A stretch of 27,892 bases of DNA, taken from positions 1 through 27,892 of the IMG/VR virus record IMGVR_UViG_3300042291_000981, one strand, 5' to 3'. This DNA is from a virus. A model generated the notes under the pieces. That model made no database searches, was not told the DNA's origin, and worked only from the letters and a program-made list of their open reading frames with translations. Both the position numbers and the translations under genes were made by a program. Shown here piece after piece: positions 6,316-23,167 of this stretch; the first letter of the stretch is position 1, and the number at the start of each line of letters is the position of its first letter.

Positions 6316-6322
6316 TGTCAAC
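6316..6322 (-). promoter_or_regulatory. GTTGACA element, 15 nt before the 40-residue gene
   Basis: GTTGACA on the minus strand, in the gap between the 144-residue gene (stop at 6343) and the ATG at 6300. The distance to the ATG is too short for a normal -35 site with its -10 box upstream of the gene. Confidence 0.4.
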
Positions 6323-6342
6323 TTAAGGGTTAGCAGTCCGAG

Positions 6343-6777
6343 TTACTGGCTAACGCTTGGGTTTGGGTTGTAGTTGTAATGGACCTCAAATGTAAGGTGA
6401 GTGGCGAATCTACGCTCTTCTCTCATGTCCTTAACACTTTGATAATAAACATCATATAAATGAAGAAACTTTACATTAGTCTTTCTTCTTTCAATCTTAT
6501 TCATTAGCGTTTGACGAACCTTGTCGCCAACATTCATATGCTCTTCTGGGGACTCTTCGTCAGAACTTGACATAATGATTACATCCAAGTCGCTTCTAAA
6601 GTTGTCCTGTGCTTCTGGATGGTCAATAAGTGGCTGGCTTTCGCCAGCCACTACAATGATGCAAGGCAATTTACGCTCCTCGTAAGTATTGGATTCAACT
6701 ACTGCATAGTTTGAATCTTTAAACGCAATTTTGAGTTTTTGAATAAAGTTATACTCTAATGCTCTTCTTTCGCTCAT
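6343..6777 (-). CDS. Tail terminator / gpU-like minor tail protein
   Basis: This 144-residue protein starts at ATG and directly follows the gp10/gpZ-like gene. It has the layout of tail-terminator and tail-completion proteins: an N-terminal helix (EYNFIQKLKIAF), a strand (LPCIIVVAGES, about residues 33-43), a central helix (EEHMNVGDKVRQTLMNKI) and a final strand containing HLTFEVHYNYNP. The second half, with a strand ending in a charged turn, resembles the gpU/DUF3168-like group, but no diagnostic motif can be checked by eye. Its place between the gp10-like gene and the tail tube supports the call. Confidence 0.5.
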   Translation of the reverse strand: MSERRALEYNFIQKLKIAFKDSNYAVVESNTYEERKLPCIIVVAGESQPLIDHPEAQDNFRSDLDVIIMSSSDEESPEEHMNVGDKVRQTLMNKIERRKTNVKFLHLYDVYYQSVKDMREERRFATHLTFEVHYNYNPNPSVSQ

Positions 6778-6780
6778 ATA

Positions 6781-7716
6781 TTATGGTAGTGATTCGTAGT
6801 ATTTAATCATTTTTTGAAACATAATTTGAACTTCTTGGTCCATTTTTAAGTTTCTGTTTTTCCATATAGTCTGTTGTATGGATGAATTAAAAATTCCGTT
6901 TAAGTTGTAATATGCATTGCGAATTGTCATCGTGTATCCAGCATCTCCATCTTTCTTTATATTGGCACTGCCAGAGCCAAGACCCTTCCCGTAAGGCCAA
7001 GTTACGGCCCTTACCCCAGAAGGAAGTTTGTTTCCAAGACCACGAGCCGCCGCCAGCCACCCGTTTATCACTATGCTAGCATAATTATATAAACTTTTCT
7101 CATTTGCTATCTTTAGTATTGACGCTTTATCTTTTACATAATAAGGTCCACGCTTTGGACCAGACACTTTCTTGTACTGGGATTTCCAGTTTATAAATGT
7201 TCCAAGTTCTGCTTGATTTACAACAAAATTTGGTTCTGGAATTTTTGTTGGGACACTAAACCCCTTTTTCATCAAAAAGTCTCTTAAGAGGTCAAACTTA
7301 CCAACATTAAATAAGTTTTGAGCAGTACTAGATGTAAACTTAAAATTAGTACTTTTTATAACATAGTCTGCAACGCTTGAGTAAGGGGTCATTAGCCAGA
7401 AAATAGCACTCCTCGATTCCCAAGGCTTAAACGCTACATCGGCAAGGCCCTTATTCTCCTGTGCATATGTTGCGAGAGCGTTGTTTGCAGTAAGGGATGT
7501 ATTGGCCCTTGTTGGAAGAGAGTATCTAGCCATTTCGTGACACAAGGCTGAACCATTTTCCTCAAGTACTTTTTTTGAATTTTTATCAAATTCCTTTTTT
7601 AACTTTTCCCACTTTTGCTCATAATTTTGCGTTCCTCTTATGCTGAACTGCATACCGCCCTTGCTCGTGCCCCAAACTGTCCCGAACTGGGTCGGGGCCA
7701 TTATTAGTTTAGCCAT
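6781..7716 (-). CDS. HK97 gp10 / lambda gpZ-like neck or tail-attachment protein
   Basis: This is a protein of about 311 residues. I chose the ATG at 7716 over a TTG 18 bases upstream, because the ATG lies one base after the stop of the preceding gene and needs no overlap. The protein is basic (isoelectric impression) with an N-terminal Gly-rich strand, then a long helix (YEQKWEKLKKEFDKNSKKVLEENG) of the kind that opens HK97 gp10-like tail-completion proteins. The size is larger than gp10 and nearer lambda gpZ (about 190) plus an extension. Position between the head-completion and tail-terminator genes gives the neck role. There are no membrane or catalytic motifs. Confidence 0.5.
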   Translation of the reverse strand: MAKLIMAPTQFGTVWGTSKGGMQFSIRGTQNYEQKWEKLKKEFDKNSKKVLEENGSALCHEMARYSLPTRANTSLTANNALATYAQENKGLADVAFKPWESRSAIFWLMTPYSSVADYVIKSTNFKFTSSTAQNLFNVGKFDLLRDFLMKKGFSVPTKIPEPNFVVNQAELGTFINWKSQYKKVSGPKRGPYYVKDKASILKIANEKSLYNYASIVINGWLAAARGLGNKLPSGVRAVTWPYGKGLGSGSANIKKDGDAGYTMTIRNAYYNLNGIFNSSIQQTIWKNRNLKMDQEVQIMFQKMIKYYESLP

Positions 7717-7717
7717 A

Positions 7718-8038
7718 TTATTGGTTGTATACAACTACATAAGCATCAAACCAAGGGCTTGGTGGCCTGTAAGTTATTTTATCAATAGCGTATGTTTTAC
7801 CATATATTTCCAATCTTTCGCCGAACTCTGGAAGACTCTTTTCAAGCCTTCCACCATGTTCAATATAGAATCTCACTCTATATCCCGCTTGATAAGTGAA
7901 ACCGCCAACATCAAATGTTTCCTGCACCACATTGCTATCGACAAGCACGATATGCTTCTCTTTTCTAAATGTGATTTCCCTTCCAAAGTCCGTAAGGAAC
8001 TCGGTAGCATCAGACCTCATTTCATCCCAGAGTGACAT
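7718..8038 (-). CDS. Head-tail joining / head completion-like protein (gpFII-like position)
   Basis: A compact 106-residue protein with an ATG start. The beta-rich pattern (REITFRKEKHIVLVDSN, GYRVRFYIEHG, RLEIYGKTYAIDKI) matches small ring-forming head completion proteins such as lambda gpFII and the head-tail adaptors of other siphophages. The segment LPEFGERLEIYGKTYAIDKITYRPP is typical of the late part of these proteins, where the element to be measured is a G-x-x-Y-x-I strand. It is the first gene after the capsid-surface block and lies 9 bases from it. No Shine-Dalgarno sequence is present, only taaaaaact before the ATG. Confidence 0.55.
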   Translation of the reverse strand: MSLWDEMRSDATEFLTDFGREITFRKEKHIVLVDSNVVQETFDVGGFTYQAGYRVRFYIEHGGRLEKSLPEFGERLEIYGKTYAIDKITYRPPSPWFDAYVVVYNQ

Positions 8039-8047
8039 AGTTTTTTA

Positions 8048-10639
8048 TTAGTAAGATGTGTAGTATCCACCGTTTCCGTCAGAGTAGTAATATGTGTAAA
8101 TATCCATCAGTGTTTCATAGTCATAATAAGACTGTGAGCCGAAATAGTATCCATATGAGGTATACTCATAAATGTATTCATTGTAGTATCCTCCGTTTCC
8201 ATCGTGATACTCCGTTGCGTAATAACCTCCATTGTCATAACTTGCATCATTTATAGTAATTATATTTCCTCCGCTTGATGTGTTGCCAGTTGGATTTCCG
8301 TATGGCTCATATGAGGGCGTTCCAGTATATTCTCCTTGATAGTATTCACCGTTCCCGCTTGAGTAGTAGTTGTAGTCGTTATAATTTCCAAGATACTCTC
8401 CGTATGGCTTATAGTTACTTCCGCTTTCTGAATAAGTTCCACAATTACCGTCAGCATATACTGAGTAATAACTATAGCCGACAGTCCAAGTACCTCCGCT
8501 TGGGTTGTTTACAGCAATGTCATTATTGCTTCCCTCTATCCAAGTTCCATACGAGTCGCAAGATGGCGTTCCTGTATATTCTCCTTGGTATGAACCTCCA
8601 GAGCCATTAGAGTAGTAGTTGTAGTCGTTGCAGTTTCCAAGGTACTGTCCACTGCTGACATAGTTCGCACCACCGTTTACATAAGTTCCGCAATTTCCGT
8701 CTGCATAAGTTGCGGATGACCAAGTTCCGACAACCCAGTCTCCACAACCAGCATTAACAGTATAGTTTCCAGAGTCAGAGCCAATCTGAGTTCCAGCAGA
8801 ATCACACTGTTGTTGTATTGGCTCAGAATAATAACCACCGCTTCCATTAGCAAAGTAATTATACGATTCGTCACTACCGTAAGAAGTTCCGCTTGGGGTA
8901 TAGTTCCATTCAGACCACTCACCAACAGTATTATTGCTGTATTGAGGTCTTGTTCTTGTTCTGCTAACCACGGAAGCACCTGCTACAGTAATGCGGTCTT
9001 CTTCTCCTTCGTATCCTGTGATTTCTGGAGTTATCGGTTCAGAGTAGTATCCACCAATCCCATTAGAGTAATACTTGTTGTCTGAGTCCTCTGTTATGAG
9101 GGTTCCGTTTGGACTGTATTCTGAGCCGACTTCAAGACCACTGCCACAGTTGCCATCGGCAACTGTGCGTTCATAAGAATATCCAACCGTATAAGTGCCT
9201 GCGTTTATTTCAACGGTTATATCTTCCCTGTCCTCTGAAAGAATTGTTCCAGATGGAGTGCAAGGGTCTGGGTTAACTGGCTCAGTATAATAATAGCCCT
9301 CTCCGTCAGAAAAATACTTGAGTTCGCTTCCTTGATGTATGAGCGTTCCGTAGACAAGGTATACCATCCCAGAGCAGGGCCCCCACAGTACATCTCCGTA
9401 TCCGTTGTCCATGCCCTTCTTTTTATTCGTCCCAACAGTAAATTCCTGCTCTTCAATTGTTACAGTCGCTGGTTCTTCGCAGTTCTCTTCGACTGAAAAT
9501 GGATATACTACATCTGGGTCGCACTCGTCTTCTACGCTTCCATTGATTGGATTTGTAACCTTTCTGAGAACGGAGCAAGGAGGGGGAGGAGGTTGGTCTG
9601 GCTCCTCTGGAGTGAATACCCACCTCCCCTTCGGGGAAGTACCAGCGTTCTCTATTGAAACTTTCCATCGACCGCTATGTATTCTTTCATCTCCAGTTAC
9701 CTTATAAGTGACAAGATAGTCTCCGTTTGGAACTGGATGACCAGCCGTTTCCCAGATGCCTTCTGTAAAACTAGCATCAGATGTTTTATATGGAGTATCT
9801 CCGTCTTGAAAATAATGTTCTACATATAAATCTCCTTCCTTCTTTCTAACACTAATAAAGGTTTGTGTTCCCTTTCCTCCATATCCATCTGCCACTTCAT
9901 ATGAATTCTCAGAGCCCATATAAGTATCAACTTGATAATAAGGACCATATATTGTACCACCGTAATCCAAAGAGTTTAGTATTTTTATTTCTCGGAAATT
10001 CTGTCCGCCAAATCCTGTAAAATTAATTTTAAATCCAGCGGGATAGTGACAACCGTTTGTGTCCTTTTGTCCGACCTCTTCGGATATTATTGTTCCGTCT
10101 GGCAGTGTATATCTGTACCTTGGATATATGGCACAAAAGGTCATATATCCATCAGCCTCCCTTTCTTGCGTAGTGTCACACCCAATCTTTGTCATTGTTG
10201 CACCAATTGCGTTGTCCGTTGTTGTGAAGTTAAACGGGCTCCTTTCGATTCCATTTTCAGTAATGGTCGAGCCCGTGCTTGATATCGGTGGCGTGTTTGG
10301 GGGCGTAAATGAAGTAACTTCAGTCCATAGTGAAGCGTGTGTAGTCGGACCATAGCCCGCCGCACCAATGAAGTTATTTAATTGATAGACCTTCCCTTGG
10401 AAGCGAACTTGGCTACCCCCTCCGTATGTAGTAAAGTTGTCATACTCTGGCACATTGCTTCCAGCCTCAAAAGAAGCCAAACTTCTGGTTGCTGGCTGAT
10501 AGAGGTATACAGCGGCCCCAGTGGCCGATATGGATGCGTAAGCATCCTTTGCCTCTGCCAGCGTTCTAAACTGCCTCAGATAGCCACTTCCGTTGGCGTT
10601 GTGGACTACTATGGTGCAATGCTGTGGTCTATATTGCAT
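8048..10639 (-). CDS. Short-domain family member fused to Tyr/Gly-rich repeat fibre (863 aa)
   Basis: Residues 1-60 are a divergent copy of the short domain found in the next five genes upstream (TIVVHNANGSG, then AEAKDAY and AAVYLYQPATRS). Residues about 66-112 carry a CBM5/12-like pattern (YGGGSQVRFQGKVYQLNNF, later PTTHASLWTEV). The rest is an array of Tyr-, Gly-, Asn- and Ser-rich modules, each with ADGNCG followed by YYSNGxGGYY-type motifs. Two neighbouring modules are almost identical in DNA at a spacing of 249 bases (83 codons). The C-terminus is especially Tyr-rich (DGNGGYY). No signal peptide or membrane segment is seen. The start is ATG, separated by one base from the stop of the 66-residue gene. 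By position I infer a fibre anchored on the head surface; a tail fibre is the alternative. Confidence 0.7.
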   Translation of the reverse strand: MQYRPQHCTIVVHNANGSGYLRQFRTLAEAKDAYASISATGAAVYLYQPATRSLASFEAGSNVPEYDNFTTYGGGSQVRFQGKVYQLNNFIGAAGYGPTTHASLWTEVTSFTPPNTPPISSTGSTITENGIERSPFNFTTTDNAIGATMTKIGCDTTQEREADGYMTFCAIYPRYRYTLPDGTIISEEVGQKDTNGCHYPAGFKINFTGFGGQNFREIKILNSLDYGGTIYGPYYQVDTYMGSENSYEVADGYGGKGTQTFISVRKKEGDLYVEHYFQDGDTPYKTSDASFTEGIWETAGHPVPNGDYLVTYKVTGDERIHSGRWKVSIENAGTSPKGRWVFTPEEPDQPPPPPCSVLRKVTNPINGSVEDECDPDVVYPFSVEENCEEPATVTIEEQEFTVGTNKKKGMDNGYGDVLWGPCSGMVYLVYGTLIHQGSELKYFSDGEGYYYTEPVNPDPCTPSGTILSEDREDITVEINAGTYTVGYSYERTVADGNCGSGLEVGSEYSPNGTLITEDSDNKYYSNGIGGYYSEPITPEITGYEGEEDRITVAGASVVSRTRTRPQYSNNTVGEWSEWNYTPSGTSYGSDESYNYFANGSGGYYSEPIQQQCDSAGTQIGSDSGNYTVNAGCGDWVVGTWSSATYADGNCGTYVNGGANYVSSGQYLGNCNDYNYYSNGSGGSYQGEYTGTPSCDSYGTWIEGSNNDIAVNNPSGGTWTVGYSYYSVYADGNCGTYSESGSNYKPYGEYLGNYNDYNYYSSGNGEYYQGEYTGTPSYEPYGNPTGNTSSGGNIITINDASYDNGGYYATEYHDGNGGYYNEYIYEYTSYGYYFGSQSYYDYETLMDIYTYYYSDGNGGYYTSY
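8316..8650 (-). repeat. Tandem 249-base coding repeat in the 863-residue gene
   Basis: The stretch beginning at 8316 and the stretch beginning at 8565 match closely. Shared runs include ggcgttcc, gtatattctcctt, gagtagtagttgtagtcgtt and ttccaag. The ADGNCG codons lie near 8439 and 8688, also 249 bases apart. The period is a whole number of codons (83), so units could be gained or lost by recombination without breaking the frame. Confidence 0.8.
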
Positions 10640-10640
10640 A

Positions 10641-10841
10641 TCAGAGAGTTACCTTAATCGGAAGTGCTGACGGAATTGTTGCCTTACGCTTTACTGGTAT
10701 GAAATAAAAGTAAGCATCTTTTCCGTCCGCAACTGCCTGCGTATAAGCAATTTTGCACTGGGTAGAGTCGGTAAACTGCTCCACGGATATGGTATCATTG
10801 TTATTAACAATAATAAGTAGTGAATGATTTGGTACTCTCAT
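10641..10841 (-). CDS. Stand-alone short-domain family protein (66 aa)
   Basis: This 66-residue protein is essentially only the short domain: a hydrophobic strand (SLLIIVNNND), a middle helix ending AYTQAVADGKDAY and a second strand (YFYFIPVK). It has lost the FEQPQP-type proline motif of its relatives, keeping only IPVKRK. The ATG lies 9 bases after a 10-bp UUCG-loop hairpin, and the stop overlaps the leader of the 863-residue gene with one intervening base. It is probably made separately from the fibre gene that follows, perhaps as the unadorned form of the same capsid-surface unit. Confidence 0.65.
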   Translation of the reverse strand: MRVPNHSLLIIVNNNDTISVEQFTDSTQCKIAYTQAVADGKDAYFYFIPVKRKATIPSALPIKVTL

Positions 10842-10850
10842 ACAAACAAG

Positions 10851-10874
10851 AAGGGGTGGCCGAAGCCACCCCTT
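10851..10874 (-). terminator. Terminator hairpin with UUCG tetraloop after the 639-residue gene
   Basis: On the minus strand, AAGGGGTGGC, loop TTCG and GCCACCCCTT form a perfect 10-bp stem, followed by CTTGTTTG. It sits between the stop at 10896 and the ATG at 10841. A cUUCGg-type loop is very stable. The U-tract is imperfect, so partial readthrough is likely. Confidence 0.75.
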
Positions 10875-10895
10875 GTTTTCTGTCCACCGTCTTGT

Positions 10896-12815
10896 TTAGA
10901 CTCCTCCCTGTATGGTTACGCCGCCTTCGCCATCGTGATAAATATAAGCACGATAAGCCTTGAACTTCTTCACGCCCGCTTCAGTCTTATCGTACTCGCT
11001 GAACACCCAAACTTGAGGATTTGGCTGAATCGTATGTTTGTTGATATAGTATCCTGCTGGGAAGCATATATTTGGGGATTTCCAAGTTGCTGGAATATTT
11101 GGCGTTTCTGGACTCCATCCGCAGTTTCCGTCCGCAACGAATCGATTTAACCACTGGTCTCCAGTTCTTACTGATATGGTGTTGCTTGGCATTGCTCCGC
11201 CAAGTTGAGTGGTGCTATTCACATAAACACCCTGTGGCAGAGGAACGGTTATGATTCTCTCTCTTCTGCTACCAACAATAGAACCACCCATTACCTTAAA
11301 TGTCCCAGCGGGCTCGCAGGGTTCGTTGGTTGGGTAATCATAGTTTCCATCTGGAACATCTGAGTTGTTATTTGGACCCCAGTCATCTCCAGTGTCGTCC
11401 CAAGAAGGAGATGCGTAGTGAGACCAGTTCCCGTACATAGTTACGAAAACCGTGTAACTCATTGTACCTTCCGTAAATGTTTCAATCACTTGCCCTTCTG
11501 GAGCGTAGTTCTGCTCTGGAGTTCCTTGATATTCTCCGCAAGTTCCATCTGCATAAAACTTCACTGTAGTGACGCTTGAAACATATGACCCGCTATTTCC
11601 AGCCAACTCCCAATAAGCAGTGTCCGACTGTAAAACTGATGTTCTTATTTCAGTGCCTTCCTGTTGGCAGGATGGATTCTCTGGTTCTGTTCCTCCACCG
11701 TTGTCGCCACCTTCATCGGGTGGTGGTTCTTCTGTTGGCTTTTGTTGTGTATAAACACCGCCAGTTCCATTCGACTTCCACCAAGTATTTTCGCTTTCAT
11801 AGACGGTATTGCCATTCGCACTGTAAACATTTAAAACCGATGGAGAATGTCCGCAATCTTCGTCAACTATAGTAACGCTATACTGAGTGCCAATTTGAAC
11901 ATATGTTTCAAGTCCAGTATCTGTTACTATTGGATACATCAAGTCCTGTATGAAGGTTCTCTCTCCAATTTCTGCTCCAACATTTGGGCAGGGTGGGGGC
12001 GGATTTGGGTCCTCTGGGTCTGGTGGAGTAACTTCTTTATTCTGTGAGTAATACCAACCATTACCATTTGAGAAGTAATATGCTGAATCTGTTTCAAGTA
12101 TTATGTTTCCATTTGGAACATAAGTATAAATATCTTCAGAGGTAAAATCCATTGCACTTACTCCTCCAAATGTTTTTCTTACGATTTTTGAACCAATGTT
12201 TACCGCAGGTTGAGTGGCGATTTGAATGAGAACTTGTATTGGTGCGGAATCTTCAATCTCATCTTTATCGGGCCAGAGTTTTTCTATGTCTGGAGGAACG
12301 AGGAATTGACCCTCTCCGTCAGCACGGAAGGTTACTCTCTTATTTGACTTTGTAACTTGAAAAACTATAGTTCCATATGGAGTGTATGTAGTTCCAATGA
12401 GGGCCCTTCTCAACATATTGTTGAAGCCCTTCCAGATTGCATAAGTTTCTTCTCCAAGTTTGAAAAGTCTTGAATCAAGTTGTTCCTGCACACCAAATGC
12501 ATTGGCAATAGCAACTGGAGCAGTCCATCTTCTGATATCTTCTGCTATTTCTGAAATCTTCTGCTCTGTTCCTCCTGCGGAGATTGGCAGTTTTTCAAGA
12601 CCTTTTTCTGTATTAATCTTGAGAGGCTGTTCATCGTTTCTTACAAATCGTGAAGGGCTTGGCTTTTCAAAGTAAAATGCTCGTTTACCGTCTGAAACTG
12701 CCTGCTGGTAGTATTTCTTAGCAAGTTCGTCATTAAAGAAAGCCTGTGCAAAGTCATTCGTAATACCGTTTGTTGTAACGGATATGATGACTATGGAATA
12801 GTCTGGGTAAGCCAT
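10896..12815 (-). CDS. Short-domain family member fused to long repeat region (639 aa)
   Basis: Residues 1-66 are a close copy of the short domain: MAYPDYSIVII, then KKYYQQAVSDGKRAFYFEKPSPSRF and RNDEQP. Next comes an approximately 170-residue globular segment with a helix (QKISEIAEDIRRW) and a PYGTIVFQVT strand. Then come modules related to those of the 863-residue protein (YSANGNTVYES, ADGTCG, ADGNCG, SNGTGGVY) joined by Pro/Gly/Glu-rich linkers (PPDPEDPNPPPP and PPPDEGGDNGGG). The start is ATG, 17 bases after a GTTGACA element. The gene ends in a strong terminator. Head fibre or decoration by position; linkers and repeats fit an extended displayed protein. Confidence 0.7.
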   Translation of the reverse strand: MAYPDYSIVIISVTTNGITNDFAQAFFNDELAKKYYQQAVSDGKRAFYFEKPSPSRFVRNDEQPLKINTEKGLEKLPISAGGTEQKISEIAEDIRRWTAPVAIANAFGVQEQLDSRLFKLGEETYAIWKGFNNMLRRALIGTTYTPYGTIVFQVTKSNKRVTFRADGEGQFLVPPDIEKLWPDKDEIEDSAPIQVLIQIATQPAVNIGSKIVRKTFGGVSAMDFTSEDIYTYVPNGNIILETDSAYYFSNGNGWYYSQNKEVTPPDPEDPNPPPPCPNVGAEIGERTFIQDLMYPIVTDTGLETYVQIGTQYSVTIVDEDCGHSPSVLNVYSANGNTVYESENTWWKSNGTGGVYTQQKPTEEPPPDEGGDNGGGTEPENPSCQQEGTEIRTSVLQSDTAYWELAGNSGSYVSSVTTVKFYADGTCGEYQGTPEQNYAPEGQVIETFTEGTMSYTVFVTMYGNWSHYASPSWDDTGDDWGPNNNSDVPDGNYDYPTNEPCEPAGTFKVMGGSIVGSRRERIITVPLPQGVYVNSTTQLGGAMPSNTISVRTGDQWLNRFVADGNCGWSPETPNIPATWKSPNICFPAGYYINKHTIQPNPQVWVFSEYDKTEAGVKKFKAYRAYIYHDGEGGVTIQGGV

Positions 12816-12832
12816 ATGTGTCTATGGCTTGC

Positions 12833-12839
12833 TGTCAAC
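12833..12839 (-). promoter_or_regulatory. GTTGACA element, 17 nt before the 639-residue gene
   Basis: It stands immediately after the stop of the 103-residue gene (12844), with no terminator in between. No -10 box could fit upstream of the ATG at 12815. Confidence 0.4.
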
Positions 12840-12843
12840 TATT

Positions 12844-13155
12844 TTACTCTATATCTAAAGACTTTGGCTCTGAAGACTTGCCAGACCTCTTGGATGAAGA
12901 CTTAACCTTTTCCTCCTCAATCACAACATCGTCCTGTGACTTAGCACCAGTGAAACCATCTATTTCATCTCTCGCCGCCGCCGACTTGCAACGCTTGTCT
13001 GGTCTTGGGAAGTGAAAAAAGTGTGCTTCCTTGCCCTGCTCTCTAACCTTTGAAAACTCGTTTAATCCATCTTGGGCATCCTCCTTCTTGAAAACCTTTG
13101 ATGTAAGGCTTCCGTTTGCTTCAACGATAATTAAAAATGAAAACTTTTGAGACAT
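12844..13155 (-). CDS. Short-domain family protein with charged tail (103 aa)
   Basis: A member of the short-domain family: FSFLIIVEANGS, then GLNEFSKVREQGKEAHFFHFPRP, in residues 1-52. The domain is followed by a tail of about 50 residues that is highly charged and Ser/Lys/Glu-rich (EEEKVKSSSKRSGKSS). The tail is probably disordered and not shared with any other member. ATG start. It is preceded at 32 bases by GTTGACA, and a weak -10-like TACATT lies 16 bases further on, so this copy may have a real promoter. Inferred capsid-surface protein. Confidence 0.65.
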   Translation of the reverse strand: MSQKFSFLIIVEANGSLTSKVFKKEDAQDGLNEFSKVREQGKEAHFFHFPRPDKRCKSAAARDEIDGFTGAKSQDDVVIEEEKVKSSSKRSGKSSEPKSLDIE

Positions 13156-13187
13156 AGTATGTCTTAATGTATAGACTAAATTGCCAG

Positions 13188-13194
13188 TGTCAAC
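13188..13194 (-). promoter_or_regulatory. GTTGACA element, possible -35 of the 103-residue gene
   Basis: TTGACA, a 16-base spacer and TACATT give a plausible sigma70-like pair. The ATG lies 32 bases after the element. Confidence 0.45.
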
Positions 13195-13197
13195 TGC

Positions 13198-13401
13198 TCA
13201 AGCACTCATTGGCTGAGAATCTTTTCTTCTAAAAGAAGTTGGCTGAGGCTGTTCATAAAGGAACGCCCGCTTGCCCTCATTGACCGCATCTAAATAGAAT
13301 GACTTTGCCTGTGATATCGTCTTAAAGACAAGAGTTTGGGTAGATGTTTCTCCGTTTGTTGTCGATTCGATTATAACTATAGAATAAGCAGGGTAAGGCA
13401 T
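13198..13401 (-). CDS. Stand-alone short-domain family protein (67 aa)
   Basis: I chose the ATG at 13401 rather than a TTG 24 bases upstream, because the protein then starts MPYPAYS, matching MAYPDYS and MAFPDYS in its neighbours; the upstream TTG would also overlap the GTTGACA element. The product is nearly the bare domain: YSIVIIESTTNGE, AKSFYLDAVNEGKRAFLYEQPQPTSF and RRKDSQP. The ATG is 14 bases from GTTGACA. It is one of the two best-conserved members, and close to the first 67 residues of the 639-residue fibre-like protein, suggesting recent duplication. Confidence 0.7.
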   Translation of the reverse strand: MPYPAYSIVIIESTTNGETSTQTLVFKTISQAKSFYLDAVNEGKRAFLYEQPQPTSFRRKDSQPMSA

Positions 13402-13415
13402 ATGTTTTTGGCATA

Positions 13416-13422
13416 TGTCAAC
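13416..13422 (-). promoter_or_regulatory. GTTGACA element, 14 nt before the 67-residue gene
   Basis: It lies between the terminator hairpin at 13431-13450 and the ATG at 13401. Confidence 0.4.
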
Positions 13423-13430
13423 CAAACAAA

Positions 13431-13450
13431 ACAGCCCCGAAAGGGGCTGT
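13431..13450 (-). terminator. Terminator hairpin after the 83-residue gene
   Basis: ACAGCCCC, loop TTTC and GGGGCTGT on the minus strand form an 8-bp perfect stem, followed by the T-tract TTTGTTTGG. It lies 23 bases after the stop at 13473. Confidence 0.8.
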
Positions 13451-13472
13451 TGTTTATTTATGTTAAATTAAA

Positions 13473-13724
13473 TTAGTCCCACTGGTCTAAATAAACTTGG
13501 CCGCTGACGGGGTGTACTGGGTACGCAAGTGAATCGTCTCTATGAAACTTTGTTGGCTGTGGTTGCTCAAACAGAAAAACCCTCTTGTATGGCTGTGCTA
13601 CTTCAGCACGATAAGCAACTTGTGCGTCTTTAACATCAGTAAACAAATAAGTTGCCCGCTCCGTTGCTCCACTCTGGAGGTTAGCGGACTCAACTATAAG
13701 AATAGAATAATCTGGGAAAGCCAT
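13473..13724 (-). CDS. Stand-alone short-domain family protein (83 aa), first after the capsid gene
   Basis: An 83-residue protein starting MAFPDYSILIVES, with a middle helix (VKDAQVAYRAEVAQPYKR) and the signature VFLFEQPQPTKFHRDD, then a 17-residue tail ending YLDQWD. It is the first gene after the major capsid protein, the place of a decoration protein such as lambda gpD. It is enclosed by terminators on both sides and preceded 14 bases upstream by GTTGACA, so its level may be set apart from the capsid gene. No homology to gpD was recognised. Decoration protein is the leading inference. Confidence 0.7.
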   Translation of the reverse strand: MAFPDYSILIVESANLQSGATERATYLFTDVKDAQVAYRAEVAQPYKRVFLFEQPQPTKFHRDDSLAYPVHPVSGQVYLDQWD

Positions 13725-13738
13725 TTGCTTTTGCTTGT

Positions 13739-13745
13739 TGTCAAC
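13739..13745 (-). promoter_or_regulatory. GTTGACA element, 14 nt before the 83-residue gene
   Basis: It lies directly after the T-tract of the capsid terminator. No -10-like sequence is present before the ATG at 13724. Confidence 0.4.
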
Positions 13746-13753
13746 TAAATAAA

Positions 13754-13777
13754 AAGGCCCCCATTTCTGGGGGCCTT
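13754..13777 (-). terminator. Terminator hairpin after the major capsid gene
   Basis: AAGGCCCCC and GGGGGCCTT form a 9-bp stem around a 6-base loop, followed on the minus strand by TTTATTTAG. It begins 20 bases after the capsid stop codon. Confidence 0.85.
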
Positions 13778-13797
13778 ATATTTATTTATCGCTCCGA

Positions 13798-14712
13798 TTA
13801 GACGGCGATAATCTTTCCGAGTGTCGGAGCATTACCGATGGACACACCATACAGGATGCTCATTGACAGTTTCTGGAGACCCTGTGTGCCGTCATACCAT
13901 TCACGGACTTGGACGGTGAGGCCAGACTTTTCGTCTGTGGCCGAGGCGACATTGCCATACCAGTTTGTTGGCAGGGCAGGCTGGCGAGTGGCGATAAGGA
14001 TGGACTCTGGGTTGCAAGCGATACCCTTAAGGTTTGTCATCGTAGCAGGGAGGGCCGCATACTGATTAACTTCAAACCCGTGAATACGAGGCAGAAGATT
14101 TTCAGTCAGAGGAGCGTTAGTACCAGAAGCATACTGGGCACTGATAGCGTTATCCTTAGCAAGAGCGGTGTAGAGCGAAGGACGAACAATCAGAATTCTG
14201 TCCTGTTGAGGGACAAAGCGGTCTGTGAGGGCCTGCGAGATGCCAGCAACAGCGTCAGCATCGAAAGCGGCGACTGTTCCGTTGTAAACCGTCTGGCCGT
14301 AAGGAACAACTTCTGGGAAGTTGGTTTCGTTGACGAGACCAAAGATGGAGTCAAGAACAGCCTTAGAAACTGCGTAAGCGGCAGGACGGATGAATGTTCT
14401 GCGGAGAACATCATAACCACCCTTAGCGACTTCACCATCAGAGAAGCCCATCACGAAGCCATGATGATTGCTGAGTTCAATTCTGCGTTCAACAGAAGTG
14501 ACATTTGTGACTTCGTAGCCCTGCGTTCCGATGTTAGTAATCGGAGTGTTTACCGCATTAGCGATACGGGTTACAACGGTTTCGCCACGAGTAGCGATTT
14601 CACCACCAAAGTTCGTAGTGAACTTGGAGATGAGCGGGAATTCAGCAAGAAGCGTTGTGAGCGAGTCTTGTGCGATGACTGTGAGGTTAATGCCTCCGAG
14701 GTTATTTGACAT
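13798..14712 (-). CDS. Major capsid protein
   Basis: A 304-residue protein that builds the head shell. Its length, beta/alpha pattern and position fit an HK97-fold coat protein: it follows the portal, protease, scaffold and two basic proteins, and precedes the capsid-surface block. The N-terminus (SLTTLLAEFPLISKFTTNF) and the following GGEIATRGETVVTRI stretch resemble the P22 gp5-like branch of coat proteins, and a long A-domain segment with RPSLYTALAKDN (about residue 177) follows. There is no long N-terminal delta domain, consistent with a separate scaffold gene. It is monocistronic-looking: terminators lie on both sides and GTTGACA is 37 bases before the ATG. A +strand ORF across it is a shadow. 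Confidence 0.8.
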   Translation of the reverse strand: MSNNLGGINLTVIAQDSLTTLLAEFPLISKFTTNFGGEIATRGETVVTRIANAVNTPITNIGTQGYEVTNVTSVERRIELSNHHGFVMGFSDGEVAKGGYDVLRRTFIRPAAYAVSKAVLDSIFGLVNETNFPEVVPYGQTVYNGTVAAFDADAVAGISQALTDRFVPQQDRILIVRPSLYTALAKDNAISAQYASGTNAPLTENLLPRIHGFEVNQYAALPATMTNLKGIACNPESILIATRQPALPTNWYGNVASATDEKSGLTVQVREWYDGTQGLQKLSMSILYGVSIGNAPTLGKIIAV

Positions 14713-14749
14713 AATTTATAAAAAGTTCGTATGAACAACTTTTGGATAC

Positions 14750-14756
14750 TGTCAAC
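14750..14756 (-). promoter_or_regulatory. GTTGACA element upstream of the major capsid gene
   Basis: It stands 37 bases before the ATG and just past the T-tract of the 14768-14789 hairpin. This leaves room for a promoter, but the expected -10 place (about TACGAA) is a poor match. The leader also contains the dyad GTTCATACGAAC. Confidence 0.45.
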
Positions 14757-14767
14757 CGTAAAAGAAA

Positions 14768-14789
14768 GAGGCCCCATTTTGGGGGCCTC
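14768..14789 (-). terminator. Terminator hairpin after the second basic protein gene
   Basis: GAGGCCCC and GGGGCCTC form an 8-bp stem with a 6-base loop, followed on the minus strand by TTTCTTTTA. It separates the 264-residue basic protein gene (stop at 14813) from the capsid gene and is similar in sequence to the capsid terminator. Confidence 0.8.
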
Positions 14790-14812
14790 GTTATTTCACT
14801 TATTGTGAGCGT

Positions 14813-15607
14813 TTACTTCTTTCTTCCTCGTCCAGAGCGACCACCTTTTCGGCGTGGCTTGGCTTTTCCCTTTGCTCTGTCTTTCTTTCCACCGCCACCC
14901 TTTCGGCGATTTCCAGTATTTATTACGCCAGCACCAGCAATGAGTCCAGAAGCCTTCTTGCTTCCAGAGCCTCTTGTTCGTCCTCCATCCTTTCCGCCTT
15001 TCTTTACTGGGGCTGTAGCAGGATTCTTCTTTCCTCCACTATTTCCACCCTTTTTGGACGGAGTAGTTGGCTTCGGAGCGTTCTTGGGAGCGGGCTTCGG
15101 CTGGCCCCTCGGGGCTGACTTCGGAGTTGGCCTTGGAGCCGACTTCGGGGTTTGCTTCGGAGTGGGCTTGGAGGCTGGCTTGGAGGCTGGCTTGGGCTGA
15201 CCACGGGGGGCTGGCTTCGGCGTAGCAGGTGCTGGTTTCTGAGCGGGTGTCGGCTGTCCTCTGTTTTGTCCTCCAACAATTGGGGTCGTTCTTGCTGGGG
15301 CTGGCGTGATTTGACGCTGACCTTCGGAAACAAGTCTATTGATTGTTGCAACCTTATTGGCGGCAGTTATCTTGACGCTCGTTCCATCTCCAAACTTAAC
15401 AGTATCGCCAGAGCGAAGAACTTTAGTAAGTTGCTCCTTCGACATAGTTCCAGTTGGAGCCTTTGTAGTGGTTCCGAACGAAGTCTTGATTCTCAGTTCA
15501 CCTTTCCGTGTTGCCTCAGCAACACCAGATTGGTCGGCACGGATTTCGCTACCCTTGGAGAAGCGACCTGCACCAGTCGCATAGTATGTTCTTCCTCCGC
15601 CTGCCAT
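14813..15607 (-). CDS. Basic tandem paralogue 2, histone-H1-like low-complexity tail (264 aa)
   Basis: An N-terminal domain of about 95 residues is followed by a Lys/Pro/Ala-rich repeat region (PKPAPRGQPKPASKPASKP and PKSAPRPTPKSAPRGQ), and then a Gly/Lys/Arg tail ending KGGRSGRGRKK. The first domain is paralogous to that of the 313-residue neighbour: both have GTGxFxRASE / GAGRFSKGSE, then MSKEQLTKVLRSGDTVKFGDG against LTYEQAQKTIRNGDKVTTPDG. The C-termini are also alike. The composition is like histone H1 or a nucleic acid-binding linker protein. Its place between scaffold and capsid genes suggests an internal head or DNA-binding protein. Function is not known. ATG start, 3 bases from the previous stop. 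Confidence 0.65.
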   Translation of the reverse strand: MAGGGRTYYATGAGRFSKGSEIRADQSGVAEATRKGELRIKTSFGTTTKAPTGTMSKEQLTKVLRSGDTVKFGDGTSVKITAANKVATINRLVSEGQRQITPAPARTTPIVGGQNRGQPTPAQKPAPATPKPAPRGQPKPASKPASKPTPKQTPKSAPRPTPKSAPRGQPKPAPKNAPKPTTPSKKGGNSGGKKNPATAPVKKGGKDGGRTRGSGSKKASGLIAGAGVINTGNRRKGGGGKKDRAKGKAKPRRKGGRSGRGRKK

Positions 15608-15610
15608 AAA

Positions 15611-16552
15611 TTACTTGGAGCGGCCCCGACCAGAACGACCACCCTTGCGGCCACCCTTGATTTCACCGAGGAATCCACGAATTCTTTGTTGACCCTTCGG
15701 GACTTTACCAGTGGCTCTCACCGTTCCCTCTGGGAGAGGCTTTCTTGGGCCTCTCTTTACGACAGGCTTAACAACTCCAGACTTCTTGTCAGATGCTCTC
15801 TTGGCCTCTCTGGCTCTTTGACCCGCTGTTCTTGCCTTGCTGACTTCAGAGCGGCTAGACTTGGGTGCATAGCCGCCAACCTTTGATATGCGGGTGTTTA
15901 GTTTTGTATTGCCCTTGCTACCCTGTGTGGCAGTGTTCTTTGAATTTGGACTAGCCTTATAAGTGGATGTTGGGCCAACCTTCTGGAAACCAATTCCAGT
16001 TCCCTTATTAAGTCTATTGGTTCCTTGACCAATTCCTTGAAGAACACCAAACGGAAGAACTTGATTGATGTTTCTTTGTTGCGGAGTTACAATTCTAGTT
16101 GCCCTTCCGCTTCCAGAACCGCCATCTTTTGGCTTGGCTCGACCAGTCTTCGGGTCAATCTTTGCACCCTTGGATAGATTGCCTGTATATCTTTCAACTC
16201 TTCCTCTTGGAACTGTATTCTTGCCAGCCTGTACACGGCCATCATCTTTGGCTGGTCGTATGATTGTAGCACCAAGACGACCAATAAGTTCATCACGGTT
16301 ACTTGCTCTTACTGTGTGAGTGATTCCGTCTGGGGTTGTAACCTTGTCTCCATTACGAATGGTTTTCTGAGCCTGTTCGTATGTTAGAGTGCCCTCTGGG
16401 TTTGCTTCGGTAGCACCGTGAATTGGTACAGCCTTTTGGTTCATGCGGTTTTCAGCCGCCGAGTTGTGTTTGCGAATTGCAGAGCGGTCTCTGCGGACTT
16501 CACTGGCTCTTGTGAAAGAGCCAGTTCCTGTTGCTTTCCATGTTCTTGACAT
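15611..16552 (-). CDS. Basic tandem paralogue 1 (313 aa)
   Basis: This is the longer partner of the basic pair. Residues 1-105 contain the shared domain (WKATGTGSFTRASEVRRD, then EQAQKTIRNGDKV and ASNRDELIGRL). The middle is Gly/Ser/Thr/Asn-rich with little predicted order. The C-terminal third is rich in Arg, Lys and Gly and ends GGRSGRGRSK, almost the same as its neighbour. Few acidic residues are present. The ATG lies about 45 bases after the scaffold-like stop, with a TTGACT-like sequence in the gap. No enzyme motif or signal peptide is present. Binding to DNA or to the acidic scaffold are both reasonable guesses. Confidence 0.65.
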   Translation of the reverse strand: MSRTWKATGTGSFTRASEVRRDRSAIRKHNSAAENRMNQKAVPIHGATEANPEGTLTYEQAQKTIRNGDKVTTPDGITHTVRASNRDELIGRLGATIIRPAKDDGRVQAGKNTVPRGRVERYTGNLSKGAKIDPKTGRAKPKDGGSGSGRATRIVTPQQRNINQVLPFGVLQGIGQGTNRLNKGTGIGFQKVGPTSTYKASPNSKNTATQGSKGNTKLNTRISKVGGYAPKSSRSEVSKARTAGQRAREAKRASDKKSGVVKPVVKRGPRKPLPEGTVRATGKVPKGQQRIRGFLGEIKGGRKGGRSGRGRSK

Positions 16553-16597
16553 AGTGTGTTACTTTACCAAACTATTTTCAGAAGTCAAGCGTTCTTT

Positions 16598-17773
16598 TTA
16601 AGAACGCTTGTTTCTGAGGATTGCGGAAGCGTGACGCTCGATGATGGCCTTGTTTGCAAGGTAGAACTTACGCTGTTCTGTTCCCTTAAGGGCTTCGAAC
16701 TGCTTGAACACCTCATCGTCAGTCTGGTCGGCAGACTTGGCCGCTTGGTCGAGACCAATGGCTACGGCTTCAACTCCAGAGGAGGCAACAATCTGAGCGG
16801 CCTTCTGCTCAACAGTCGATGCCGACTTTTCCATAGTTGATACCTTTGCAACGAGGGCTTCAAACTTGTCGCTTAGAGCCTTCATGTGGGCAACGGCTTC
16901 TTCCTTTGCCTTGGTTTCAAGGGCAAGGGTGGCCTTTGCGGAATCAACTTCAGTGTTGGCTTCTGGCTTTGGCTGGCTCAAGGAAGCAAGTTTTTGAAGA
17001 ACTGCTTCAATCTTGTTATTAAGGGCTTCAGCAGTTGCCTTGATTGTTGGCTCTTCAGAAGCGACAGGAGCAGAGACAGTTTGTTCTGCTTTGACTTCTT
17101 TGGCGACTTCAGCCTTTGGCTCTTCTGTGACTTGCTCGGCTTGGGGTGCTTCATTAGATTCTTTGCAATTCTTGCCAGTGGCATTCTTTCCGCCACGGTT
17201 ACGCTTCATCTTTGGAGCGTCTTCTTCTTCGTCATCCTTGGGTTGACCCATGACAACTTCCTTGTTAACGCCTTCGATTACATTACCTCCAACTTCACCT
17301 TCGGCCTTGGCCTCTTGGTCTGGGCGGGCAGGTCCAGATGTGTTGGAGACTTCGTACTCAGCCTTGGCTTCGGATGGACCTTGGTACATACCGCCATTGT
17401 CCTTAAATTTGCCACCTTTAGTTTCCTTTTCCATGTCATTTTCGGAATCTTCGTCCTTCTTGATGACAACCTTGACATTCTTAGACTCATCGTCATTGTC
17501 TGGATTCTTTTCTGGGGACTGGTAGAGGGAGGAATACTTTCCTTCCATTTCGTCAATCTTTTTGCCCATGTCCTTGCTGTAGTCCTTCATGGTGGCATCC
17601 ATTTCGAGGACCTTTTGCATGGCAGATGTAAGCCCGTCTTCCATCTTTTTCATACGCTCAAAGTATGTGTTGTTGTCACCAGCAAGCGTGGTGAGTTTTT
17701 CATTGAGAGCCACAGTCTGTGCTGTCTGTGATTCGATGAGTTCTTTGAGGATGGTGTCTATTGATTTGCTCAT
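16598..17773 (-). CDS. Putative head scaffolding protein
   Basis: A 391-residue protein, strongly acidic and low in aromatics. The first 90 residues look like a coiled coil (IDTILKELIESQTAQTVALN, KKMEDGLTSAMQKVLEM). A disordered Asp/Glu/Lys-rich middle follows (DDESKNVKVVIKKDEDSEND), then a Glu/Ala/Lys-rich region. It closes with a compact helical end (DDEVFKQFEALKGTEQRKFYLANKAI), a typical position for a coat-binding helix. It lies between the S49 protease and the capsid genes, the order of lambda C, Nu3 and E, but here as its own gene rather than nested in the protease. ATG start, with a GTTGACA and TATTAC pair 29 bases upstream. Confidence 0.65.
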   Translation of the reverse strand: MSKSIDTILKELIESQTAQTVALNEKLTTLAGDNNTYFERMKKMEDGLTSAMQKVLEMDATMKDYSKDMGKKIDEMEGKYSSLYQSPEKNPDNDDESKNVKVVIKKDEDSENDMEKETKGGKFKDNGGMYQGPSEAKAEYEVSNTSGPARPDQEAKAEGEVGGNVIEGVNKEVVMGQPKDDEEEDAPKMKRNRGGKNATGKNCKESNEAPQAEQVTEEPKAEVAKEVKAEQTVSAPVASEEPTIKATAEALNNKIEAVLQKLASLSQPKPEANTEVDSAKATLALETKAKEEAVAHMKALSDKFEALVAKVSTMEKSASTVEQKAAQIVASSGVEAVAIGLDQAAKSADQTDDEVFKQFEALKGTEQRKFYLANKAIIERHASAILRNKRS

Positions 17774-17802
17774 ATTGAGAGTAATAATTAAAAATGTTAA
17801 GT

Positions 17803-17809
17803 TGTCAAC
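17803..17809 (-). promoter_or_regulatory. GTTGACA element, candidate promoter of the scaffold-like gene
   Basis: TTGACA, a 16-base spacer and TATTAC form a moderate sigma70-like promoter ahead of the ATG at 17773, in a gap of about 60 bases after the protease gene. Confidence 0.5.
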
Positions 17810-17831
17810 CCAAGCGAAGGTCGGTTGCGTA

Positions 17832-18809
17832 TTAGAACTTATTTCCTAGAAGGCGGCTTACCGTCTCGTCCATCTTGAACTGTCTATTCATTTTGATGGA
17901 TTGTTCGACTTCCTTCCACCCGTCAACAAGGTTTGTCGCAAGGCCCTTGCGTACAGCCTCATCGCCGTAGAAGGACTGGCCTTGAAGGTCGTCCTCGCTT
18001 GCGAAGACTCTTACCGAGCGAATGTCTCTAATGAACCTTCTGTGCAGTTCATCTACTTCGTCCTGTAGTCTTTGTCTCTGAAGTTCAGACAGGCCAGTAT
18101 TTTCAACCCCAGCCGCCTTGTACTCACCAGACTTGATAATATCAATTTCAATACCTTCCTTTTGATGCTTCTTGTCGTGGTTTTTTAAAGTTAAATAAAT
18201 ACCGCAAGCACCAATGCTTGACGATGATGTTACATAAAAACGAGAGCATTGGCTCGCAAGCCAGTATGCGGCGGAGCCGCAGTCTCCTTCGCAATAAGCA
18301 ATAGTTGTCTTTGGGTACTGTCTAATCTTCTTTGCCATTTCTTCAAGGCCAGAAGTAGAGCCGCCCCCAGAATCAAACTTAAATACAACTTCTTGCACAT
18401 TGTCCATCTTTTCCCAGCAATCCATCGTGCAGGCAATTTCCTTAAGGTCTGCACATCCAAGCATACGCTCAATCTTTGTCAAGCCCTTGCCAATAACGCC
18501 CTCTACGGAAATGCACCCAACGCCATCTTTTATTTCTGGATTCTTGGCTGATGAGAAGAATGAGTCAACATCCATTCCAGCGTTTGTCTCATTATCATCT
18601 TCTTCTACCCAAGGATTTCCAGCACGAGGTCTTTTCTTTTGCTTATTGGCCTTAGATTCATACTTATCTGTCCACGCAGACAGATAATAAGCAATATCTG
18701 GACTGTTCAATAGAAGGTTTGCATTGTCCATGAAAGCCTTGGCTTTCAGTGGGTCAATGAGCATCGGCCTTCCAGCCGAGATTGCATAACAGAGGTCGTT
18801 TCTAATCAT
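17832..18809 (-). CDS. Head maturation protease, S49 (SppA/lambda gpC-like)
   Basis: A 325-residue peptidase that would cut scaffold and other head proteins during maturation. The S49 fold signals are clear: a central strand and turn FKFDSGGGSTSG (about residues 143-154) and the nucleophile Ser179 in GDCGSAAYWLAS. SSSSIGACGIY follows, and the general base is Lys231 in IKSGEYKAAG. These are the Ser-Lys dyad positions of lambda gpC-type enzymes. The start codon overlaps the stop of the portal gene (ATGA), a sign of translational coupling. The C-terminal 60 residues hold the usual DDLQGQSFYGDEAVRKGL segment. No nested scaffold frame was found in it. Confidence 0.85.
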   Translation of the reverse strand: MIRNDLCYAISAGRPMLIDPLKAKAFMDNANLLLNSPDIAYYLSAWTDKYESKANKQKKRPRAGNPWVEEDDNETNAGMDVDSFFSSAKNPEIKDGVGCISVEGVIGKGLTKIERMLGCADLKEIACTMDCWEKMDNVQEVVFKFDSGGGSTSGLEEMAKKIRQYPKTTIAYCEGDCGSAAYWLASQCSRFYVTSSSSIGACGIYLTLKNHDKKHQKEGIEIDIIKSGEYKAAGVENTGLSELQRQRLQDEVDELHRRFIRDIRSVRVFASEDDLQGQSFYGDEAVRKGLATNLVDGWKEVEQSIKMNRQFKMDETVSRLLGNKF

Positions 18810-20503
18810 CTTATGTAAGATTGGTCTCTTGGGGCTGAAAGACCTTGGTTTTGCTTTGGAATGGAGTCAACCGACATATTTGTCTCATTTATTGCTCCAA
18901 CGCCAGAGCCGATGTTCGGCTCTTGTGTTTCTGGAAGGGTAGCACCAACCAAGTCGTCCTGCATTTCAATTCCTTCATCGGCAGACATTGGCTTCTCCAT
19001 TAGAGGCTGTCCGTCTGGTCCGAGGACAGGCTTCCCGTCTGGGCCAATAATTGGCTTACCTCCCTCACTCGGAGAGGGACCACCACCCTGCGGTGAGAAT
19101 CTGAAGAGGTCTTCTCTGTCAAGACCTGTATCCTCAGCAAGTTTCTTCAAGAACAGAAAGTTCTTGGCTCGCTTTCTCATAGTCTTTTCAAACTGTAATC
19201 CACGAGCGGCGAAGTCGTCTTCAAGTGTATTTCTTCCCATCTCAAGGTCGGCTCGCTCATTCTGAGCATCACGACCAGCATCAACTGTAACATTTCTTGT
19301 CACCATCCAATCAACCTTCCACCAATTCTTGGCGGAAGGGAGGTCTCCACGCATAATCTTTGTTCCAAGCCAATACTGGAAGTATGGATTAAGGAAACGC
19401 TTAATCATTATGTTCTGACGCTTTGAGAAATATCTGGATGCCTTGGCAACCACAAGTCTGACGGCGGAGCCGCCAGCCTTGGTTGGGTCTGCTACAAACT
19501 CGTAAGGAAGGGAGCCCATTACAGAGTCCCTTCTAAGGTGTTCAATGAAGCCAGTAAAGGCCGTTGTCGGCCTTGCTGGCTGGTGAGCCACCAGTTCTTC
19601 GTTGGGCTGGATTATTGCCGTGACACCACCGAGAACTCTATCTAGATTTGTTGTGTCAGTGCTACTCGTTCCAAGTGCCTGCCCGAGTCCAATGTCACCA
19701 TTGTCGGCAGAGGTATCGTGCGTTTTGAAAATTCTTGAGACTCTTGCGTTGTCCTTAGCCGCAACCTTCTCCATCGAAAGAAGGTCCATTTCATCACGCA
19801 TATTGTTTATGGCGTGTTGATGCGGAGGATATGCACGAGACGCTGATGCGTGTGTTGGCTCGTAGATATGCATCATGGACGATGCAGGTATAGCCGAATA
19901 AGAGCCGTCAGACTGCTTTACATAGTACTGAGTCGGAACCCCGAATTTGTTATATCTAATGCCATCGCTTACATTATAGTCGGTGAGGAGAGTCGGAGGT
20001 GTCTCAACTCTATGGCACTCGATAATCTGGAATTTTGGAACTCCATTCCGCTTTGCTTTAATGGCAAAGATTTCACCGTCTCTATCGAGGGATTCGCAAA
20101 CAATGTAGAGAGACTCTAGCATCGAAAACCTTCCAGTTACTTCTGGCGATTCACACTCCTGCTCCCACTCTGCTTCAACGAGACCTTGCCAATCAAAGTC
20201 GCCACCATTGGCTTGCATATGAATTCCCTCTCCAACTGAATATAATGCCGTATCTTTTATCGTTTGTCTAAAAAGTCCATTATTCTTTTCAAGCCATCGG
20301 GATAAGCGAACCATCTCACGCCTTACATTCGCCGTCATTTCTTGACGGAAATCCGTTGGCATCGGAGCGTCTATTCTAGACCTGTGCGGAGAATATCTAG
20401 CAGAGTCCCATGTGCCCGTATAAGCCTTCGGCTTAAGCACATTTGCTATTGCTAGTCTTGCTCGGTCAATAAAGCCAAGCGGTTTTTTCTGTTGTTCGCT
20501 CAT
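18806..20503 (-). CDS. Portal protein (lambda gpB family)
   Basis: A 565-residue portal, the dodecameric DNA gate and head-tail vertex (lambda gpB has 533 residues). Recognisable features are the N-terminal DSARYSPHRSRIDAP segment and a long helix TANVRREMVRLSRWLEKNNGL. These are followed by LYIVCESLDRDGEIFAIKA and the family stretch ending SASRAYPPHQHAINNMRDEMDLLSME. The central region has the SYRRLVVAK-like SAVRLVVAKASRYFSKRQN. The C-terminus is Pro/Gly-rich and disordered, with GPDGKPVLGPDGQP repeats. It overlaps the preceding gpW-like gene and the following protease gene by ATGA. The operon order W, B, C is that of lambda. Confidence 0.88.
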   Translation of the reverse strand: MSEQQKKPLGFIDRARLAIANVLKPKAYTGTWDSARYSPHRSRIDAPMPTDFRQEMTANVRREMVRLSRWLEKNNGLFRQTIKDTALYSVGEGIHMQANGGDFDWQGLVEAEWEQECESPEVTGRFSMLESLYIVCESLDRDGEIFAIKAKRNGVPKFQIIECHRVETPPTLLTDYNVSDGIRYNKFGVPTQYYVKQSDGSYSAIPASSMMHIYEPTHASASRAYPPHQHAINNMRDEMDLLSMEKVAAKDNARVSRIFKTHDTSADNGDIGLGQALGTSSTDTTNLDRVLGGVTAIIQPNEELVAHQPARPTTAFTGFIEHLRRDSVMGSLPYEFVADPTKAGGSAVRLVVAKASRYFSKRQNIMIKRFLNPYFQYWLGTKIMRGDLPSAKNWWKVDWMVTRNVTVDAGRDAQNERADLEMGRNTLEDDFAARGLQFEKTMRKRAKNFLFLKKLAEDTGLDREDLFRFSPQGGGPSPSEGGKPIIGPDGKPVLGPDGQPLMEKPMSADEGIEMQDDLVGATLPETQEPNIGSGVGAINETNMSVDSIPKQNQGLSAPRDQSYIR

Positions 20504-20748
20504 CTATAAATTTGACGACCATAGTTAGTCCAGAGACCTCTTATCATCTTGCCATCAAGTTTATCAAGTGCATACTGGGCCTCGTGGAGCATCTCTTTGG
20601 GTGTCATTGCAAATTGCTTTGAGGCGTTATTAACGCCATCTCCATAAGACATAATGGTCTTCCCTTCAAGAATCAAGGCAACAGCCTTGTCCCTTATCTT
20701 TTCGATAGTTTCACGGGGTAGACCAACAAATAATCCTTCAGCGGCCAT
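20500..20748 (-). CDS. gpW-like head-tail joining protein
   Basis: An 82-residue protein, ATG start. Its size and position match lambda gpW, which lies between A and B. The sequence has the helix RETIEKIRDKAVALILEGK followed by a small beta turn (IMSYGDGVNNASKQFAM) and another helix (PKEMLHEAQYALDKLDGK), the helix, hairpin, helix layout of gpW/gp25-like joining proteins. The stop overlaps the start of the portal gene (ATGA). A GTTGACA element lies 14 bases before the ATG. No other role is suggested. Confidence 0.65.
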   Translation of the reverse strand: MAAEGLFVGLPRETIEKIRDKAVALILEGKTIMSYGDGVNNASKQFAMTPKEMLHEAQYALDKLDGKMIRGLWTNYGRQIYR

Positions 20749-20762
20749 TGATAATTGACCAC

Positions 20763-21821: not shown

Positions 21822-21864
21822 ATATTGTTGTAATGTCTACTTAATTGCTTGACTTTGCGTTGAT

Positions 21865-23129: not shown

Positions 23130-23167
23130 TACATATAGTATATATATAGATATCCGCAAAGGGTAAA

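Follow-up and report, generated by a model that had tools for sequence, protein, structure and literature searches.

What are six related genes in a row behind a major capsid gene used for, and where would their products act? The window (the whole stretch of DNA that was analysed, 27,892 bases of an uncultivated virus record) carries a siphophage structural module on its minus strand with a lambda-like gene order. TerL (GpA type), a small gene at the gpW position, the portal, the head protease and a scaffold-like gene are followed by two basic proteins, the major capsid protein, a six-gene cassette, a head-closure-like gene and the tail genes. The nearest annotated phage was P8625, a siphophage that grows on the Verrucomicrobia strain Puniceicoccales IMCC8625, with 27% identity in the capsid protein and 24% in the terminase, and since P8625 is the nearest by both proteins, the host of the window virus is likely a member of the Verrucomicrobiota. 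Relatives of the capsid protein and of the protein of gene C were absent from the genome collection searched, and therefore no prophage host is named. The six genes, named A to F in transcription order, and the two genes that border them are listed below.

13798-14712, minus strand: major capsid protein gene (phrog_283, E 1e-27)
13473-13724, minus strand: gene A, 83 aa, a single anchor domain (13536-13724) and a short tail
13198-13401, minus strand: gene B, 67 aa, a single anchor domain (AlphaFold2 model ββαβ, pLDDT 84)
12844-13155, minus strand: gene C, 103 aa, an anchor (12976-13155) and a low-complexity tail ending in SLDIE; the universal core copy
10896-12815, minus strand: gene D, 639 aa, an anchor (12630-12815) and a fibre-like region that evolves fast and has its Tyr/Gly repeats from about 12125 downwards
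10641-10841, minus strand: gene E, 66 aa, a single anchor domain, sister of the F anchor and always directly before F
8048-10639, minus strand: gene F, 863 aa, an anchor (10466-10639), a CBM5/12-like module, a middle region and Tyr/Gly repeats predicted to be all-beta
7718-8038, minus strand: head-closure-like gene at the FII position, which ends the cassette (phrog_161, weak, E 0.12)

A sequence-only reading of this DNA had described six consecutive minus-strand genes right after the capsid gene that share one N-terminal domain. The open reading frames are present as described, and HMM searches supported a common domain of about 60 residues in all six beyond chance. An alignment of the six window copies alone was too divergent for scanning. 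Leave-one-out HMMs, searched against the 174 open reading frames of the window, recovered the family members with E-values of 8.9e-21, 1.5e-13, 1.3e-12, 1.8e-11, 8.9e-5 and 0.0026 (the last for F), while all open reading frames outside the family had E>0.8. An independent HMM, built from the sequences of other phages only, matched all six with E-values from 1.7e-22 to 6.1e-13, and all 3,480 shuffled decoy open reading frames gave E>1. Both searches thus showed the six N-termini to be related. Some details of the earlier description needed correction. An EQPQP-type motif is found only in A and B, D has EKPSP, and the motif is absent from E and F. Four genes were said to be little more than the domain, which holds for A, B and E, whereas C adds a low-complexity tail of about 45 residues. 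The remaining two, D and F, do run on into long Tyr/Gly-rich modules with a repeat type common to both, although the two long proteins are unlike in that a CBM5/12-type module follows the anchor in F and not in D.

A ββαβ fold was predicted for the domain with AlphaFold2 from a 60-sequence alignment, with a pLDDT of 84. Foldseek of this model gave nothing significant, the best E-values being 0.5 in the PDB and 0.026 in the viral library, and beta-tulip, OB, Ig-like, Soc and Psu folds were not among the 50 matches listed. No family match for the domain was obtained in Pfam, in which 60 domains were tested, or in PHROGs, and searches of an annotated phage collection with the domain and with the fibres were both without a match. 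The earlier statement that no described family was recognised agrees with these searches of Pfam, PHROGs, the PDB and viral-structure libraries. Head fibres and decorations as such are known, but the sources searched contain no description of the anchor family, of its six-paralogue expansion with two fibre lineages or of an E-F unit at a second site.

Scans with the capsid protein yielded about 29 related contigs. In these loci, repeated rounds of HMM searching detected the domain in 60 distinct copies, each of them between the capsid and head-closure genes. Class C was present in 25 of the 25 loci whose contig reaches far enough. The number of copies per capsid locus varied from one (L006, L010 and L012) through two, as in most loci, and three or four to six (the window and L005), and the order of the accessory copies was variable, with E-F before C in L024 and L043 and after C in the window. 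When whole records were searched, a single exception to the capsid locus came up, an E-F pair (L083 4656-6700, minus strand) in the 80.6-kb record of L008 (G003). This pair carries CBM5/12 and adjoins replication genes, with the capsid gene about 15 kb downstream of it. E and F are thus inherited as a pair and, judged from this site, appear to behave as one transferable unit.

We favour, with modest confidence, the reading that the six genes form one paralogous family of head-associated proteins, with D and F as head fibres and F as the glycan-binding one; the location on the virion is one that we infer. The sequence-only reading had suggested a common anchor used alone or bearing appendages, and the homology, the near-exclusive position behind the capsid gene and the different rates of the D anchor and fibre support it. 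The domain would bind the assembled capsid shell, and C would be the ancestral capsid partner, as a decoration or a stabilising protein. A, B and E would be extra single-domain decorations, with E as partner of the F anchor, whereas D and F would project fibres from the head. Until the tail meets its receptor, the CBM of F would keep the particle attached to glycans, either extracellular ones or those of the host surface. A further-reaching version is put forward tentatively. It describes a ββαβ capsid-binding family of up to six paralogues on different sites of the shell, with two independent head fibres, one of them glycan-binding, and with E-F as a mobile, self-contained adhesin module.

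The head-associated reading is plausible because carbohydrate-binding head fibres and decorations are known, among them Hoc, pb10, SPP1 gp12 and phi29 gp8.5 (PMC7602432). Several observations weigh against it: the domain matches none of the known decoration folds, the E-F pair of G003 is away from the capsid locus, C has the position of lambda gpFI, and the F fibre evolves no faster than its anchor in the comparison with L007. As is proposed for D and F, phi29 gp8.5 contacts the capsid with its N-terminal domain and continues as a long fibre that helps in cell attachment (PMC7602432), but it combines a beta-tulip base with a helical coiled-coil fibre, whereas the window proteins join a predicted ββαβ domain to Tyr/Gly repeats predicted to be all-beta, and paralogues of one domain stand alongside them. 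T4 Hoc, T5 pb10 and N4 gp17 are likewise head decorations with a capsid-anchoring part and are thought to bind carbohydrate (PMC7602432). They consist of Ig-like domains and are encoded by one gene each, in contrast to the six-gene family of the window, and no Ig domains were found with Pfam in the window proteins.

The history of the family was traced from the core copy. In the relatives, the tail of C ends in a semi-conserved, short acidic terminus (SLDIE, AVDLE or AIDM). In P8625 (NC_029047), the gene immediately after the capsid gene encodes gp12, a protein of 82 aa annotated as hypothetical. A comparison of single sequences with gp12 was suggestive only. A P8625-type profile was also compared, made of gp12 and its homologues from relatives of P8625, and hhalign matched it to the domain family profile (A4 against A6) with an E-value of 3.1e-7 and a probability of 93; a second comparison (A2 against A6) gave an E-value of 4e-5 and a probability of 70. 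By these profile comparisons, class C is a remote homologue of P8625 gp12, and both stand directly after the capsid gene in their phages' lineages, P8625 being a cultured siphophage; gp12 differs in being a single copy with a Lys-rich tail and no fibres. Two contigs (L067 and L072) stand apart from the other P8625-type core homologues, which have Lys-rich tails: their P8625-type gene after the capsid gene encodes a linker that is long and acidic, and a C-terminus that is charged and prone to form helices (DGRKAEVKEAKEKLAELGI).

Since the sequences are short, only the strong forks of the tree were used. Class C and the P8625 type formed one clade (100/98), and every accessory copy fell in the other, in which A, B and D formed one group (100/99) and E and F another (96/87). 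The fibre-bearing anchors of D and F were separate supported clades. The simplest reading of the tree would be an old single capsid-adjacent gene that was duplicated later, after which two different anchors each acquired a fibre. Because D and F have a common repeat type, one fibre may instead have been exchanged between their anchors.

Small late genes beside the capsid gene are also found in lambda, as gpD and gpFI (PMC7602432). The window domain differs from these in having no sequence or fold match to the beta-tulip gpD or to Packaging_FI. The map position of lambda FI is presumably that of class C, and lambda gpFI is not known as a decoration of the mature virion. Because C occupies this position, an assembly role was kept as a rival: C would be a gpFI-like accessory of head assembly and packaging that is on the prohead during assembly only, and just D and F, perhaps with E, would be in the virion. 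The lambda-like order, with C between the capsid gene and the FII-position gene (itself identified by phrog_161 at E 0.12 only), speaks for this, as do the disordered tail with its semi-conserved terminus and the charged, helix-prone C-terminus of some P8625-type homologues (L067, L072). However, Packaging_FI of Pfam matched neither C nor one of the 60 domains. The paralogues A, B and E likewise consist of one domain, and most of them have the promoter-like element of the capsid gene; the radiation to fibres is easier to explain if the ancestor stayed on the particle. We regard the assembly role as unlikely. The location of the core gene product is directly testable, because a homologue exists in the cultured phage P8625.

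Expression signals of the cassette were compared with those of the other structural genes. The heptamer GTTGACA occurred in 205 sense and 9 antisense copies in 497 kb of related loci. Its distance to the W-position, scaffold, capsid and cassette genes that follow it was mostly 20-60 nt, and that to the tail-tube gene was about 30 or about 155 nt. About 20 of the 205 copies fell within the last part of the portal gene, ahead of the protease gene. The elements and terminator-like hairpins around the cassette are as follows.

14750-14756, minus strand: GTTGACA upstream of the capsid gene
13754-13777, minus strand: terminator-like hairpin between the capsid gene and A
13739-13745, minus strand: GTTGACA upstream of A
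13430-13451, minus strand: terminator-like hairpin between A and B
13416-13422, minus strand: GTTGACA upstream of B
13188-13194, minus strand: GTTGACA upstream of C
12833-12839, minus strand: GTTGACA upstream of D
10851-10874, minus strand: terminator-like hairpin between D and E

A sigma-70 promoter was considered for GTTGACA and rejected, as for most genes there was no -10 hexamer at 16-18 nt. Since the element is often only about 20 nt before the ATG and has no -10 box, it may serve as a phage-specific late promoter whose transcripts have little or no leader. In the window (6316-20769, minus strand) and in loci L005-L026 and L041-L047, CCA or CAA often follows 4-5 nt later. Strong terminator-like hairpins were found on both sides of the capsid gene and also between A and B and between D and E. 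E (10641-10841) and F (8048-10639) come after the D/E hairpin and are near-overlapping, suggesting that their translation may be coupled. Read as a putative promoter, the late-promoter-like signals place the cassette in the class of the capsid and tail-tube genes, and together with the separate terminators they would give late expression of that type. Two features looked for in a decoration protein were both found: in all relatives the gene is next to that of the capsid protein, and GTTGACA is a putative signal of late expression.

The same signals could suggest that the six genes encode small non-structural proteins, for example anti-defence or regulatory ones, carried as independently transcribed morons that happen to have been inserted there. 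A separate GTTGACA precedes A, B, C and D, terminators stand beside some of the genes, and the weak Foldseek neighbours of the domain, none of them significant, include the small phage inhibitors Dmd and p56. Yet GTTGACA also precedes the capsid, scaffold and tail-tube genes, C is universal and, given the P8625 type, older than the group, and the fibre or CBM modules of two members set them apart from cytoplasmic inhibitors. We consider this explanation very improbable.

The long proteins of the head-associated reading were then compared part by part. The fibres of D and F are alike in their Tyr/Gly-rich repeats and show BLAST similarity to each other. The repeats of F have the motif [SA]DGxGG/C at spacings of about 31 and 50 residues. 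PHROGs and Pfam gave no match for D or the window F, and no known tail-fibre family was hit. Two parts of F were delimited.

10325-10444, minus strand: CBM5/12-like module of F, aa 66-105 (PF02839, 22.8 bits)
8051-9487, minus strand: repeat region of F, aa about 385-863, all-beta predicted with low to moderate confidence

The structure model of F was all-beta at low confidence, with a mean pLDDT of 51. A beta-propeller-like architecture was rejected, as the Foldseek hits of this low-confidence model had a TM of about 0.09, and none of its matches could be used.

The fibre of D has diverged much more quickly than the D anchor and the capsid protein. Compared with L005, identity was 92% in the capsid protein, 66% in the D anchor and 40% in the D fibre, and compared with L026 the values were 83%, 71% and 30%, respectively. 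Parts that bind the host often evolve fast. F showed this weakly or not at all: compared with L007, its fibre was 54% and its anchor 50% identical, so the F fibre was no faster than the anchor.

Binding of glycans, which had been suggested for the appendages, has a basis in F and none in D. The window segment of F scored 22.8 bits with PF02839, under the Pfam gathering cut-off of 26.2 bits, whereas two F orthologues scored above it (26.9 bits for the L005 segment and 30.7 bits for the whole L083 protein); the window copy shares 63-66% identity with them. Among solved structures, the segment profile matched best to the chitin-binding domain of chitinase A1 (1ed7, E 0.002), and residues 66-105 of F align over the CBM5/12 module. 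The usual setting of this module is in chitinases, but the CBM-like module of F has a phage anchor domain before it and a fibre after it. It is missing in two F orthologues (L024 and L043).

Modules of this kind bear on a further alternative, in which the domain anchors to the neck, collar or tail, and the head block would encode, in D and F, whiskers of the collar or side fibres of the tail. It is favoured by the connector genes, on which the cassette borders as well, by the E-F pair, which is able to sit outside the capsid locus, and by the frequent presence of carbohydrate-binding modules on tails and baseplates, for example BppU in Douge (PMC13033339). On the other hand, the number of single-domain paralogues and the invariant adjacency of C and capsid gene fit a shell protein better, and the distal tail block (19-2936) has its own separate proteins, without the domain. 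D and F themselves lie in the head block, not in the distal tail block. We judge a neck or tail anchor to be quite unlikely. CBM5/12 modules were also considered in the distal tail gene 19-1494, for which Pfam gave no match.

On the favoured head-associated reading, the locus looks like a small head-associated protein turned into host-gripping appendages. Verrucomicrobiota are abundant and include many polysaccharide degraders, and the attachment of their phages is almost uncharted. If the reading is true, a new anchor family, undescribed in the libraries searched, has grown from a single head-associated gene into a six-gene display set, which would be a natural toolkit for protein display on a phage shell.

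Three other features of the window were observed. Between the scaffold and capsid genes (14813-16552, minus strand) are two very basic Lys/Pro/Gly-rich proteins of 264 and 313 aa, which have a common N-terminal pattern; PHROGs gave a match for neither. An opposite-strand block (21845-25663, plus strand) lies between the terminase and the W-position gene; it encodes an RtcB-like RNA ligase, kept in L005, L010, L012 and L042, and also holds a dNMP-kinase-like gene (24795-25382). Also in this block, at 23411-23968 on the plus strand, a phage protein ends in a PEP-CTERM-like sorting signal (PEP, a hydrophobic stretch and KK). PEP-CTERM proteins are known in Verrucomicrobiota-like hosts, and the one seen here was confined to the window and to L011, a near-identical contig.
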